This document shows, piece by piece, positions 21,252 to 30,548 of a DNA stretch of 30,771 bases. Each line of letters opens with the position of its first letter. The first letter of the stretch is position 1. A program made the position numbers and the translations under genes. The DNA lies in contig CP070700.1 in the NCBI GenBank assembly GCA_020349865.1, positions 3,365,724 through 3,396,494 of the forward strand, read 5' to 3'. The stretch is from Desulfobacteraceae bacterium (GTDB lineage: Bacteria; Desulfobacterota; DSM-4660; Desulfatiglandales; Desulfatiglandaceae). The notes beneath the pieces are model-generated. The model did not search any database. It was not told where the DNA came from and was given only the letters and a program-made list of their open reading frames with translations.

Positions 21252-22997
21252 CTATGGTCCGTTTCCTTTTGAGGCTGCATTTGCCAAGTCAAGCTCCAAA
21301 TCACATTGGAGGCACCTTTTTGCTTCACTTATGGCATGATCGTCATCAAAACAGAGATCAACCTCTGTGAATCCATCGTGCCTTTCTGAAAGGGGTATAG
21401 CCGGGATTTCGGTCCTGGTAAGGTTTGCAAAACCCTTTTCTCTATTGCCTGTGTATGAGCTATAATCAGGCCGTTGAGCAAGGATTTCCTCTATATCGCC
21501 ATCTCCACCCAGGAATTTGTCAATGGATTTTGCGGCCCTTCGGCCGGCGGAAATGGCATCTATTATGGCACCGGGGCCTTTCCCCACATCGCCGCCTGCA
21601 TAGACACCCGGCATACCCGTTTCATGGGTTTCCTGGTTAGTCGATATCAAACCCTTTTCGATCTTCAAAGGTCCATTATTATCAACAAATGAGAGATCGG
21701 CTGCCTGGCCGATAGCCAGAATGACCTGATCAACTTCCACTTTTTCTTTGATGTCGTTAAAGGCAGGGCAAAAATTGCCGCCTTCATCAAATACCGACGC
21801 GCACTGTATAAGCTCAGCGCCTATGACTTTGCCATTATTCAGTAAGATCTTCGTGGGGCCCCAGGAGGTCATCAGCCTGATGCCTTCTTCCAGGGCCATT
21901 TCAATCTCCCATGGGTTGGCAGGCATCTCATCTCTACTTTCCAGACAGGCCATGATTACCTCTTTGGCCCCAATTCTTAATACAGTGAGAGCCACATCAA
22001 CCGCTACATTTCCACCTCCTACGACCAGAACCCTGTGTTTAAGGGAAAACTCCTTTCCTTCGCTGATTTCGGCAAGGAAGTCGATTCCCCAGAAGACATC
22101 ATCAGACTGTATCCCTTCAAGCTCTATTTTCCGGCTCAGTTGCAATCCCGTGGCAATGAAAACCGCCTCAAAACCATCTGCCTTTAACGTGTCCAGATCA
22201 AAATCACTGCCCAGCTTTTTTCCTGTCTCAAGACCGATGCCTATGCTCAAGACCTTATTAATCTCCTTTTCCAGCACCTCCTCCGGCAGCCTGTAATAAG
22301 GGATTCCATACCTCATCATCCCTCCCGGCTTGGATCTTGCCTCAAAAACCGTTACATCATGTCCCTTTTTCCGCAGATAAAAGGCTGCTGTCAGACCGGC
22401 AGGACCTGCCCCGATAACGGCCACTTTGTGACCTGTACTTCCTTTTATCTTTGAGGCCCTCTCAAATACATTTTCTGCCTTATCCGCTGCATAACGCTTG
22501 AGCGCGCATATTGAGATAGGTTGATTGAAAACCTCCAGACGCCTGCACGCATCTTCGCAGGGGTGCCTACATACCCTGCCCAGAATACCCGGGAAAGGCA
22601 CCTTTTCCATGATCAAGGCGCAGGCCTCATCCGGCTTTTCTTCAGCAATAAGCCTGATGTATCCCGGTATATGTATACCGGCGGGGCAGGCCCTGGTGCA
22701 GGGGGGCCAGTCCGGCACGAACTCCTGGGGAGCCATGGAGCGCAGGGGCCTTATTATATCGAGAACGGCGATGCCATTGGGACAAACCTCTTCGCATCTC
22801 CCGCATGTAGTGCAGGTCCATGAAAAAGATGTTTCCGCAATCTCATCCATGAGATCAAGCTCGATATGTCTGACGATCCGCCTCACATTAAACCCGTTTA
22901 CGCCCGTAATGGGGCATGCTGAACTACAACATCCGCACTGTTCGCAGGCCCTGAACATGTTCACATCACTAAATTTTTCTGCTAATACTCTATCCAT
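21252..22997 (-). CDS. HdrC-like/NfnB(GltD)-like fusion flavo-iron-sulfur oxidoreductase
   Basis: This 581-aa protein fuses an HdrC-like ferredoxin domain to a GltD/NfnB-type NAD(P)H:acceptor flavoprotein. The first domain has two clusters, CEQCGCCSSACP (Cys18, 21, 24, 28) and CTTCGRCEEVCP (Cys62, 65, 68, 72). The second has the GltD cysteines CTRAC (100-104) and CRHPCEDAC (143-151), FAD motif GAGPAG (196-201), a GGMMRYGIPYYRLP stretch, an NAD(P)-binding GGGN (327-330) and the terminal FAD motif YAGGD, and ends with KRCLQCDL. It likely exchanges electrons between NAD(P)H and Hdr-type partners in the cytoplasm. It is the last gene of the run, 178 bp after the HdrA-MvhD fusion. No HdrB-type CCG protein is present. 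Confidence 0.8.
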   Translation of the reverse strand: MDRVLAEKFSDVNMFRACEQCGCCSSACPITGVNGFNVRRIVRHIELDLMDEIAETSFSWTCTTCGRCEEVCPNGIAVLDIIRPLRSMAPQEFVPDWPPCTRACPAGIHIPGYIRLIAEEKPDEACALIMEKVPFPGILGRVCRHPCEDACRRLEVFNQPISICALKRYAADKAENVFERASKIKGSTGHKVAVIGAGPAGLTAAFYLRKKGHDVTVFEARSKPGGMMRYGIPYYRLPEEVLEKEINKVLSIGIGLETGKKLGSDFDLDTLKADGFEAVFIATGLQLSRKIELEGIQSDDVFWGIDFLAEISEGKEFSLKHRVLVVGGGNVAVDVALTVLRIGAKEVIMACLESRDEMPANPWEIEMALEEGIRLMTSWGPTKILLNNGKVIGAELIQCASVFDEGGNFCPAFNDIKEKVEVDQVILAIGQAADLSFVDNNGPLKIEKGLISTNQETHETGMPGVYAGGDVGKGPGAIIDAISAGRRAAKSIDKFLGGDGDIEEILAQRPDYSSYTGNREKGFANLTRTEIPAIPLSERHDGFTEVDLCFDDDHAISEAKRCLQCDLELDLANAASKGNGP

Positions 22998-23175
22998 ATC
23001 TTTATTATGCCCTCACGAGTGCTCTGGCATGCAAAGCTATCCCTGAGTTTCGTTTTGAAAATTTTTTAACACTTTGACAATTATTATTCCTTGTTCGATA
23101 TTCTCATTTGAGTAGTGCCATTCAACGACATATAGAACATCAGTGAGATGATGGCCTATGAACGGTTATACCTTT

Positions 23176-28547: not shown

Positions 28548-28562
28548 TTTTTTACCTCCTCC

Positions 28563-30548
28563 TTAGATCCTGAGACCAATCCTGTAGCCGTCATGTACGG
28601 CGCTGGATAAGTTGCGGGGTACCAGTGCATCTCCAATGACAAAAAGTTCGATACCCTCTGCCTGGACCACCTTCTTGAAACTGTCATTTGCTTCTCGCTC
28701 TGAAACAATCACCGTATCGCATTTTACCGGGAACCTATATCCGTCAAAGGTTTTTACAATGATTCCACCCTCACTGATTTCTTCTATATCGCAGTCATTG
28801 TAGGCCATAACGCCGTTTTGCCTGAGATAAATCATATACCGCCATTTGAAGGATGGATTGATATCAAATCCGGCGGTTTTTTCTTTTCCAACGATGGTGA
28901 CCTTTTTGCCCTGTTTGGCCAGGTGAAGGGCTACGCCAATGCCCGGCTTTCGGTTTCCCCAAACAACCACATTTTCACCGACTTGAGCTTTTCCAGCCAT
29001 AACGTCCAAAACATTCACAACATTTTCTCCGTCGCCGCCGGGGCCCTGGATCTTTGAGTAAATGGGCCCGGTAGCCAGGACCACAGTGTCGGGCATCTCT
29101 TCCTGGATCAGGTCTTCAGTAACTTCGGTGCCCAGATGAAGCTCAACGCCTGCCATCTCACACATCTTTTTCTGATAATTAACACAGGTCATGAGCTCTT
29201 CATCTCCATAAGGAGCCCTTGATGCCTCCAGCAGGGTGCCGCCAAGTTCCTCCCTCTTGTCATAGACATGCACTTCGTGCCCCCTCTGGGCCGCCACATA
29301 GGCACATTCAAGGCCTGCCGGACCCGCACCAACGATCATAACCTCCTTTTCTTCCTCTGCTTTTTGAGGATAAAAGCTTTCGTCATGTTCGTGCGCGCAC
29401 AAGGGATTTATGTAGCAGGTCATGGGCGCATCACGGAAAAGCCTTGCAAGACAAAGGTTGCACGCTACACAGTGCCTTATCTCATCTTCTTTTCCCTCCA
29501 ATACCTTCTTGGGCATGAAGGGATCGGCAATCATTGAGCGGCACATTTCCCAGATATCCAATTCGCCATCCCCAATGGCCTTGTTCGGCTTATCCGGCGT
29601 GAACAACCTGTAGGCCATCTGGATTGGTATGTTCACATGCTCCTTGGCCCGTTTGGCCAGATGGAGCCAGTTCCCTTGAGGAATGTCCCTGCTGATTACA
29701 GGATATATGGATTCCTGCCATCCAAGGGTGCAACTGATGTAGTCCGCCCCTGCCTCCTCGGCAATTTTGTAAGTCTCCATGGATTCCTCGGGTGTATTTC
29801 CCCGCACATCATCCAGAAGCTCTTCGGAGCAGAGCCTGATACCCACAGGAATATCAGGGCCGCACACTTCCTTAACCCCCTGGATAATCTCCACCATGGC
29901 CTGACATCTGCCCCTCACGTCTCCGCCATACTCGTCGGTCCGCCGGTTAGTGTAGCTGGATAAGAAATTGGAGATCAGGTAGCCAACAATGCCCGAGATC
30001 TCCATGATGTCAAAGCCCGCTTCAACACCTCTTCTGGCGGCGTCCACATGTTGCTTTACCATCTCCTTTACTTCCGCGTTGGTCATCTCATACATGGGCT
30101 TAAAGATCCTGAGGCGCTGGGGCACGGTGGTTGGGCCATGACCACTGTCAACCTCTACCGCTCCGACCCTGCCGCAATCCATCAGCTGAAAACCGGCAAC
30201 GGCCCTTTCCTCATGAATTGCATCAGCCAACCTTTTAAGCCCGGGGATAAACTTGTCATCCCAGCATGCCGCTTGTCCCACATATCCCTGTCCCTTACGG
30301 GGTTCATCCATGTATACGCCCTGCATGAAGCACAGACCACCCACGACACCTTCAGCCCGTCTCTTAATATAGGCAACATCGGCATCGGTCACAAAGCCAT
30401 TGTGGTCGTTTAAATTGTCCTCTGTGGCCGCATACTTGATTCGGTTCGGTACCGTAAGATCACCCAACTGAATCGGCTTGAATAGATGGGGGTATGCCTT
30501 TGCCCCCGGGTATGATGAGTAGTCCCATTCAAATAGTAACTTAGCCAT
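28563..30548 (-). CDS. Old Yellow Enzyme/2,4-dienoyl-CoA reductase-like FMN-FAD-[4Fe-4S] flavoprotein
   Basis: This 661-aa protein has the FadH/BaiCD architecture: an OYE-type TIM barrel binding FMN (about 20-350), a [4Fe-4S] motif CVACNLC...C (Cys360, 363, 366, 378) and a FAD/NAD(P)-binding half with GAGPAG (407-412) and a terminal VIGDAL. The barrel shows GYLISNFLSSYTNRRTDEYGG near 189-209. Family members reduce dienoyl-CoA, enoates, bile-acid intermediates or 2-naphthoyl-CoA, so the substrate is a C=C next to a carbonyl, probably a CoA thioester. The ATG at 30548 has AAAGGAGG about 7 nt upstream; the preceding in-frame TTG is less likely. It is the first gene of the redox run, with repeat copy 2 just upstream. 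Confidence 0.88.
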   Translation of the reverse strand: MAKLLFEWDYSSYPGAKAYPHLFKPIQLGDLTVPNRIKYAATEDNLNDHNGFVTDADVAYIKRRAEGVVGGLCFMQGVYMDEPRKGQGYVGQAACWDDKFIPGLKRLADAIHEERAVAGFQLMDCGRVGAVEVDSGHGPTTVPQRLRIFKPMYEMTNAEVKEMVKQHVDAARRGVEAGFDIMEISGIVGYLISNFLSSYTNRRTDEYGGDVRGRCQAMVEIIQGVKEVCGPDIPVGIRLCSEELLDDVRGNTPEESMETYKIAEEAGADYISCTLGWQESIYPVISRDIPQGNWLHLAKRAKEHVNIPIQMAYRLFTPDKPNKAIGDGELDIWEMCRSMIADPFMPKKVLEGKEDEIRHCVACNLCLARLFRDAPMTCYINPLCAHEHDESFYPQKAEEEKEVMIVGAGPAGLECAYVAAQRGHEVHVYDKREELGGTLLEASRAPYGDEELMTCVNYQKKMCEMAGVELHLGTEVTEDLIQEEMPDTVVLATGPIYSKIQGPGGDGENVVNVLDVMAGKAQVGENVVVWGNRKPGIGVALHLAKQGKKVTIVGKEKTAGFDINPSFKWRYMIYLRQNGVMAYNDCDIEEISEGGIIVKTFDGYRFPVKCDTVIVSEREANDSFKKVVQAEGIELFVIGDALVPRNLSSAVHDGYRIGLRI

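Follow-up and report, generated by a model that had tools for sequence, protein, structure and literature searches.

How might an acyl-CoA reductase of the old yellow enzyme (OYE) family be supplied with low-potential electrons? The question is raised by eight genes in a 30,771-nt stretch of DNA from a Desulfobacteraceae bacterium (contig CP070700.1), hereafter called the window. Read from position 30548 down to 21252 on the minus strand, they encode an OYE-family reductase (OYE), a 175-residue protein (U175), a 2[4Fe-4S] ferredoxin (FdA), a VOC protein, a second ferredoxin (FdB), a short HdrA, an HdrA-MvhD fusion and an HdrC-NfnB fusion; open reading frames and domain searches place all eight in this order. 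We lean, if only slightly, towards reading them from their sequences as a ferredoxin-fed acyl-CoA reductase resembling 2-naphthoyl-CoA reductase (NCR), served by a dedicated HdrA/NfnB module for bifurcation, much as in the Bam complex, the class II benzoyl-CoA reductase.

Two observations from the literature, cited here and below for those parts of each source that were available, define the problem. According to the available parts of PMC12016498 and PMC13365417, the degradation of polycyclic aromatic hydrocarbons (PAH) is the sole process in which OYE-type (type III) aryl-CoA reductases are known. For NCR, ferredoxin, and specifically a low-potential one, is the assumed donor (PMC6502838, PMC12093976). 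The string 'hdr' has 0 occurrences in the latter two papers.

Conservation of the gene order

A named genome collection was scanned with the U175 family: 48 stretches match its patterns, 43 of them encode a relative, and 42 loci result. With L072 and L073 added, the set comprises 44 loci (L and G numbers denote our loci and genomes). As all 44 were selected via U175, the count of OYE genes ahead of U175 is conditioned on it. Identity thresholds for gene matches, set per gene by the analyst, range from 30 to 60%; linkage means downstream on the same strand and tolerates gaps, while an absence is scored only if the contig continues for more than 2500 nt. Some of the protein searches cover the best 120 matches. 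By their record titles, the 42 named loci divide into 38 of Desulfobacterota type, three from Planctomycetota and one from Thermoproteota (binning not checked), and all 42 come from metagenome-assembled genomes (L019 under the title 'mag2').

The order is kept with few exceptions. OYE lies upstream of U175 in 42/44 loci, the contigs of L012 and L024 starting too late. U175 is followed by FdA in 44/44 loci and, among loci with room, FdA by VOC in 42/42, VOC by FdB in 34/37 (exceptions L017, L028 and L073), FdB by the short HdrA in 33/33, HdrA by HdrA-MvhD in 31/31, and HdrA-MvhD by HdrC-NfnB in 23/23, with L009 and L016 matching the N-terminal part of the last gene only. Median gaps between linked genes are 18 to 177 nt, and the largest are 1.7 kb (an inserted aminotransferase gene) and 6.1 kb (L040). 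Matches to all eight genes are present in 22/44 loci; among these, L009 and L016 match only the N-terminal part of the last gene, in L004 and L026 this gene runs into the contig end, and in L005 it is divided between frames. The contig titled Thermoproteota, an archaeal one of 3.0 kb, carries OYE, U175 and FdA. For matches covering more than 80% of the gene, the median identity to the window is 79% for OYE, 66% for U175, 82% for FdA, 80% for VOC, 69% for FdB, 77% and 73% for the two HdrAs and 59% for HdrC-NfnB. An earlier, sequence-only reading of the window had described eight consecutive minus-strand redox genes in this order, which is borne out here and recurs in the 44 loci.

Table 1. Positions of the eight cluster genes and of the nearby importer-ligase sets in the window.
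Feature	Position	Strand	Characteristics
NCR-like OYE-family reductase (OYE), 661 aa	28563..30548	-	FMN barrel, [4Fe-4S], FAD domain; Oxidored_FMN 9.5e-56, Pyr_redox_2 8.7e-17
U175, 175 aa	28020..28547	-	TRAPP/V4R/H-NOX-type fold by prediction; may bind a hydrophobic ligand or present the substrate
FdA, 2[4Fe-4S] ferredoxin, 68 aa	27802..28008	-	dicluster ferredoxin domain; likely the OYE electron donor
VOC protein, 144 aa	27117..27551	-	Glyoxalase_4; methylmalonyl-CoA-epimerase-like, under that family's cut-off
FdB, second 2[4Fe-4S] ferredoxin, 70 aa	26908..27120	-	dicluster ferredoxin domain; Hdr half starts here; 4-nt overlap with VOC
Short HdrA, 450 aa	25320..26672	-	FAD and Fe-S; NF040770 437 bits; K293 aligned with K409 of 5odc HdrA
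HdrA-MvhD fusion, 687 aa	23176..25239	-	NF040770 645 bits; C-terminal FlpD/MvhD (FlpD 8e-41); K322 aligned with K409 of 5odc HdrA
HdrC-NfnB fusion, 581 aa	21252..22997	-	HdrC-type Fe-S (dicluster) domain and GltD/NfnB-type FAD/NAD(P)H body; least constant member
Two liv-type ABC importer and acyl-CoA ligase sets, possibly connected to the cluster	5007..18843		close relatives adjoin another OYE of the same larger group

The NF040770 scores of both HdrA-type proteins in Table 1 fall under that family's cut-off of 1100. The OYE gene starts with the ATG at 30548, preceded by the ribosome-binding site AAAGGAGG, and the window ends 223 nt upstream of this start. From OYE to HdrC-NfnB, the intergenic gaps measure 15, 11, 250, -4, 235, 80 and 178 nt. 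A computed scan of the gaps 27552-27801, 26673-26907 and 22998-23175 found no minus-strand terminator-like sites; promoter-like sites occur in the region at the rate of shuffled sequence (15 versus 13.2 +/- 4.1), and an Rfam search gave nothing informative.

Co-occurrence of the two halves

The association can also be followed across genomes, in a sample of 395 genomes from one phylum that partly overlap with those of the locus set. U175 is present in 11 of them, and OYE at 71-87% identity in exactly the same 11. An orthologue of HdrA-MvhD (68-88% identity; one partial at 70%) is found in 12, namely in 10/11 genomes with U175 and 2/384 others (naive Fisher p 3e-17, kinship of the genomes uncorrected); a thirteenth match is only 45% identical. 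In the two genomes that have HdrA-MvhD without U175 (G263 and G242), the contigs are cut within the cluster, one starting just before FdA and the other inside HdrA.

The short HdrA is not seen in 11/44 loci, six of which were traced in their genomes: L017, L028 and L073, which have room, and L025, L029 and L037, which meet the contig end. An HdrA-MvhD orthologue lies elsewhere in five of the six genomes, namely G022 (same contig), G409, G406, G410 and G004 (truncated), and G323 has none. In G410, L025 breaks off in FdA, and the second piece (L110) has VOC and part of FdA at its end; here the cluster was probably broken merely by assembly.

Two of these genomes have unusual arrangements. On the chromosome of G004 (CP070697.1; L017, L107), only the last 113 residues of OYE remain (9645-9983 of L017) and the Hdr genes, about 105 kb away from this remnant, are truncated as well, a cluster both split and decaying. 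G022 (L073, L106) has a long run in which the cluster is joined by a second VOC gene, an acyl-CoA dehydrogenase, an ETF-QO/FixC-like protein, EtfB, EtfA, a small protein that looks FixX-like by eye and a 3HCDH-ECH fusion, with the Hdr half at its end. The EtfAB/FixCX-type genes were considered as a substitute for the Hdr half in G022 and rejected, as the whole Hdr half is found on the same contig.

Could the two halves be independent systems that merely adjoin? The separation of the Hdr half from the OYE half in G022 (farther on the same contig), G409, G406 and G004 would fit such an arrangement. Given their co-occurrence across the 395 genomes and the truncation of both halves in G004, we regard it as extremely improbable; the data support the two halves behaving as one unit. 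The sequence-only reading had named unlinked, scattered homologues as evidence against it; the linkage in 44 loci and the co-occurrence strongly favour it.

Relation of the reductase to 2-naphthoyl-CoA reductase

Among solved structures, the best sequence relative of the OYE is NCR (6qkg; 457 bits), followed by 2,4-dienoyl-CoA reductase (DCR; 266) and histamine dehydrogenase (225). The predicted model (pLDDT 82.8, pTM 0.83) likewise has NCR as its best fold match (TM 0.86), with DCR at TM 0.84. In a midpoint-rooted tree of 54 rows, from which C_L097, read in the wrong frame, was excluded, DCR and histamine dehydrogenase form long branches. These two and 12 paralogues fall outside a branch with support 96/93 that unites NCR, the cluster OYEs and other OYEs of 36-49% identity. 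Within this branch, the cluster OYEs, the archaeal sequence among them, group together (100/99) beside clades of 47-49% and 43-46% identity (100/99). Of the 36-40% rows, some fall in a set with NCR and the rest, L067-L070, in a separate one. Genomic context was inspected for 5/5 of the further OYE matches at 47-49%, 8/17 at 43-46% and 5/8 at 36-40%.

Alignment to NCR, with residue roles taken from the available parts of PMC6502838, shows that the OYE keeps Y82, Y197, I194, V195, T280, G282, Y320, R245 and E341. The proton donor Y197 is among these, Y82 is kept in the 13 cluster rows covering that site, and the R245-E341 pair of the low-potential FMN site is retained; position 38 is E, neither the V of NCR nor the H26 of DCR. 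The pocket residues H84 and Y166 named in the paper were not used, as the chain letters at those numbers disagree. E. coli DCR (1ps9) has the three-domain architecture in common with the OYE, but the two are 32% identical, have different active-site sets, and DCR lies outside the NCR group. Judged by its sequence, the OYE is a member of the NCR group and appears to have retained a large part of the catalytic and low-potential FMN site. Annotation as a FadH-like dienoyl-CoA reductase is rejected as an identity on the basis of alignment, residues and tree, and is retained below as a functional alternative.

A closer counterpart of NCR exists in another genome. The OYE of L096 (G015, C338:3568-5499) is 59% identical to NCR, with the full proton relay Y82/H123/R155/Y156/Y197/H284 as well as W459, and is likely a true NCR relative.

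Ferredoxins and the Hdr half

The eight cysteines of FdA, and its first motif C-x2-C-x7-C-x3-C, are invariant in 45/45 rows. Spacings of comparable length are a feature of Alvin-type ferredoxins with very low potential, where the other motif carries them. In the 47-49% and 43-46% sister clades, a 2[4Fe-4S] ferredoxin gene lies no more than 900 nt downstream of OYE in 11/12 loci with room, and at the same distance there is none in the five 36-39% rows examined (0/5).

For the Hdr genes, alignments were built from matches covering more than 85% of the gene, giving 33 and 29 rows for the two HdrAs and 19 for HdrC-NfnB. Both HdrA-type proteins have heterodisulfide reductase A chains as their best solved relatives. 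The lysine aligned with K409 of 5odc HdrA, which we take to sit at the FAD, is invariant in 33/33 rows of the short HdrA and 29/29 rows of HdrA-MvhD. An HdrA-type sequence with the FAD fold and a K409 equivalent, a sequence mark of HdrA bifurcating modules, is thus present. The invariant lysine is consistent with flavin-based bifurcation, so that this part of what the sequence-only reading had proposed gains support, its interpretation overall standing in part. Its QmoAB label describes a resemblance only, given the heterodisulfide reductase relatives and the absence, in domain searches of the eight genes, of a QmoC-type membrane subunit. HdrC-NfnB finds its best solved relatives in a molybdopterin oxidoreductase, a 963-aa 'NfnA', a formate-dehydrogenase-type subunit and NfnI subunit alpha; the naming of Nfn subunits varies between authors. 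An in-frame TGA, possibly encoding selenocysteine, is present in several of the HdrA-type matches from G323, G409, G410 and G012.

U175 and the VOC protein

The confident model of U175 (pLDDT 92.1) has its best fold matches in TRAPP Bet3/TPC6; lower down come the V4R protein MJ1460 and two phenol sensors, MopR and PoxR. The likeness to this V4R/TRAPP superfamily (Bet3, MJ1460, the MopR/PoxR sensor) is one of predicted fold, whereas identity is 4-14%; Pfam gave no V4R match at E 0.1, and a sequence search of solved structures was unproductive. The available parts of PMC2253512 present V4R proteins as presumed binders of hydrophobic ligands, and going by the model it is possible that U175 binds or presents a hydrophobic substrate. 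A match to ATC_hydrolase (PF14196; 1e-3) scores 20.4 bits and does not reach the cut-off of 28.1; a role as L-ATC hydrolase is rejected on this score and because the predicted fold points elsewhere. What had been listed as an unknown 175-aa protein can thus be refined to one with a weak ATC_hydrolase match and a predicted TRAPP/V4R fold.

The VOC protein scores 78.2 bits against TIGR03081, under the cut-off of 114.95, and its 45 rows have M-L or M-I where 3oa4 has the HH pair; methylmalonyl-CoA epimerase was rejected on both counts. In L054, L057 and L058, VOC is 73-78% identical while the OYE there is only 47-49% identical, which suggests that VOC may be under stronger constraint than the reductase. 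In the same clade, L056 has a VOC-like neighbour of only 31% identity and L055 is cut.

Neighbouring genes

Two paralogous importer-ligase sets start 2.4 kb past the cluster (5007-11534 and 12087-18843), and their ligases are 61% identical to each other. Relatives of ligase 1 adjoin 44-45% OYEs in L063 (67%) and L062 (partial, 80%), and L063 also has LivF and LivH of the same importer set (69% and 71%). At a loose threshold (E 1e-140 or better) and with kinship uncorrected, ligase-1 relatives occur in 10/11 cluster genomes versus 91/384 others, and in 30/39 genomes with an OYE match versus 71/356 without. As ligase-1 and Liv relatives accompany OYEs, the gene content points to an imported organic acid that would be activated to its CoA ester. 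Elsewhere, the 36-38% OYEs of L067-L070 lie beside liv-type importer-like genes, without a ferredoxin gene; in L067 and L068 there is also a CoA ligase by OYE, that of L067 resembling 2,3-dihydroxybenzoate-AMP ligase. The window encodes a membrane-like protein on the plus strand at 20091-21110, with a weak match to a calcium/sodium antiporter family (TIGR00367, under cut-off).

Three further neighbours recur. A TetR gene lies upstream of OYE in 24/44 loci, with a TetR_C_4 (YsiA-like) domain in the one member tested; a 3HCDH-ECH fusion is found in 10 genomes, close to either the OYE half or the Hdr half; and a pyridoxal phosphate-type aminotransferase gene immediately follows VOC in 10 loci. 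The 3HCDH-ECH domains were confirmed on two fusion proteins, and the remaining TetR and fusion calls were made by sequence match.

TrpB2 is encoded in the locus at L009, L018, L027, L030, G410 (L110) and L058 (where the OYE is the 47% one), accompanied in 5/6 by IorA. Together with the aminotransferase in 10 loci, this raises the possibility of aromatic amino acid metabolism, in which the aminotransferase and indolepyruvate:ferredoxin oxidoreductase would supply arylpyruvates or arylacyl-CoA along with reduced ferredoxin. We think this quite unlikely: the set is not seen in most of the 44 loci (some being too short to tell), and a four-cysteine protein that accompanies TrpB2 and IorA occurs in 61/198 genomes, so the gene set is a common one, which weakens TrpB2-IorAB as proof of such a pathway. 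This companion, of about 90 aa, lies between TrpB2 and IorA at L009:2991-3275 and in relatives, with no Pfam match at 1e-5. At L058 (5-8086), the 47% OYE stands in a run with ferredoxin, VOC, TrpB2, the four-cysteine small protein, aminotransferase and IorA, along with two proteins that are NuoE- and NuoF-like by eye.

Proposed mechanism and alternatives

We propose the following division of labour. In the catalytic half, the OYE would reduce a conjugated, probably aromatic, acyl-CoA at its FMN, while FdA would deliver single electrons to the FAD and from there via the [4Fe-4S] cluster. U175 would bind or present the hydrophobic substrate, and the target of VOC might be the CoA thioester or the enzyme itself. 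The electron half, made up of FdB, both HdrA-type flavoproteins and HdrC-NfnB, would link the NAD(P)H pool to ferredoxin by flavin-based bifurcation: one electron of each pair would be raised to the low potential that the OYE needs, and the other would drop to NAD(P)+ or another acceptor. The whole would follow the Bam scheme, with the OYE replacing the tungsten subunit. The features of the HdrAs and HdrC-NfnB, together with the Bam precedent, support a bifurcating supply.

Several observations speak against this proposal. H284, in NCR one of two hydrogen-bond partners of Y197 along with Y82, is Q in 14/14 cluster rows; the position is Q in 5/5 rows of the 47-49% clade and H in 13/13 rows of the 43-46% clade. 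In the window OYE, V38 is replaced by E, N247 by C, F375 by L and F573 by S, the NADPH-blocking W459 by L, and the proton-relay residues H123, R155 and Y156 by A, I and F. D569 is the sole residue kept of six in the postulated ferredoxin site of NCR, and the Fe-S motif reads C-x2-C-x2-C-x11-C where NCR and DCR have x3. Because of the changed residues, W459 among them, the pocket and FAD site differ from those of NCR. Beyond the enzyme, L009 and L016 have only part of the last gene; in L112, the gene after HdrA-MvhD is 3HCDH-ECH and not HdrC-NfnB; and G323, a 2.5-Mb assembly whose locus L029 stops right after VOC, has OYE and no HdrA-MvhD orthologue. Finally, the dihydro-naphthoyl-CoA step of the pathway to which NCR belongs, also carried out by an OYE, works with NADH according to the available parts of PMC12016498, so OYE relatives need not depend on ferredoxin.

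Since the H284 and W459 hallmarks fail, we do not file the OYE as an NCR or a type III aryl-CoA reductase. It shares with NCR the nearest solved sequence and fold, one supported tree group and Y82, Y197, R245, E341, T280, G282 and Y320, but is about 40% identical over aligned columns, differs in H284Q, V38E, W459L, F573S and the Fe-S spacing, and belongs to a cluster that adds U175, FdA, VOC and Hdr partners. The link to 2-naphthoyl-CoA reductases that had been drawn from the sequence alone therefore holds for the larger group (best sequence and fold matches, tree), with the NCR hallmarks H284, V38, W459 and F573 changed.

The same changes bear on a possible, though on balance unlikely, alternative: the OYE could act on non-aromatic enoyl- or dienoyl-CoA substrates in a beta-oxidation-like pathway, and the high potential of its substrate would allow the Hdr half to reduce ferredoxin with NAD(P)H. 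In the Bcd-Etf and caffeyl-CoA reductase systems, an exergonic reduction is used to reduce ferredoxin from NAD(P)H. An enzyme of this kind would suit the loss of the W459 block and of the NCR ferredoxin-site residues, the upstream TetR genes with their one tested YsiA-like member, the 3HCDH-ECH fusions near either half, and the acyl-CoA dehydrogenase and EtfAB genes in the G022 run. It would be at odds with the grouping of the OYE with NCR and not DCR (itself a long branch), with the retained R245-E341 pair and missing H26 equivalent, and with the dedicated ferredoxin gene that accompanies the OYE in the cluster clade as in the two sister clades.

Oxidation instead of reduction is a further option, with the OYE as a dehydrogenase or demethylase like trimethylamine dehydrogenase or histamine dehydrogenase, electrons leaving via ferredoxin and the Hdr half confurcating to NAD(P)+. 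We consider this very unlikely: the enzyme is only 29% identical to histamine dehydrogenase, which stands far outside in the tree (on a long branch), it retains NCR-type residues, and the importer-ligase and TetR genes indicate acyl-CoA chemistry. The Fe-S spacing is that of histamine dehydrogenase, though common to the sister clades and ordinary paralogues, and the aminotransferase directly 3' of VOC in 10 loci would also be in keeping with such an enzyme.

Comparison with known systems

The ferredoxin-fed NCR-like reductase that we favour has an analogue in BamBCDEFGHI, in which a reductase is joined to Hdr-like, hydrogenase-type and NADH-type subunits; the available parts of PMC12016498 give these as Hdr-like, hydrogenase-type and Nuo-type and describe the complex as bifurcating. 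The proposed complex would differ in having an OYE instead of the tungsten BamB (no match to the tungsten aldehyde-oxidoreductase-like BamB family was found among the eight proteins) and an NfnB/GltD-type rather than a Nuo-type NAD(P)H subunit. HdrABC-MvhD-MetVF of Moorella is similar in that an HdrA/MvhD module serves one reductase, but the reductase is another one, and U175 and VOC are unmentioned in the available parts of PMC5736913. In the sulfate reducer Desulfococcus multivorans, hdrA1-mvhD1 and a pyridine nucleotide-disulphide oxidoreductase likewise combine HdrA, MvhD and a pyridine-nucleotide flavoprotein, and the set was detected on particular substrates; the OYE half is unmentioned in the available parts of that source (PMC5109826). 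The 'Magic' benzene flavoproteins (PMC13101534, PMC13416013) were rejected as relatives, being GlcDEF/VAO-type and not OYE in the parts available.

No description of the eight-gene set appears among the literature titles and abstracts listed, at most 20 of up to 436 per search, in agreement with the sequence-only reading, which knew of no complex with this exact set; this is weak evidence, as most subscription papers lie outside the search.

Significance

The arrangement of the eight genes is confirmed, and its interpretation is supported as to unit and kind. Going further, the cluster could represent a fourth route of dearomatisation, in which an Hdr-driven OYE would act, without ATP or tungsten, on a widespread and possibly monocyclic aryl-CoA (benzoyl-CoA type), handed over by a V4R-fold subunit, in uncultured anaerobic bacteria and perhaps an archaeon; we offer this as a doubtful, speculative extension.

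For NCR-like enzymes, the cluster gives concrete candidates for the electron supply, namely two ferredoxins and an HdrA/NfnB module, tied to the reductase by conservation, and with eight genes at hand the question of the natural donor becomes directly testable. It also extends such enzymes to many uncultured Desulfobacterota-type genomes and, going by record titles whose binning was not checked, to three of Planctomycetota and one of Thermoproteota. With this wider taxonomic spread, the chemistry may extend beyond PAH degradation.

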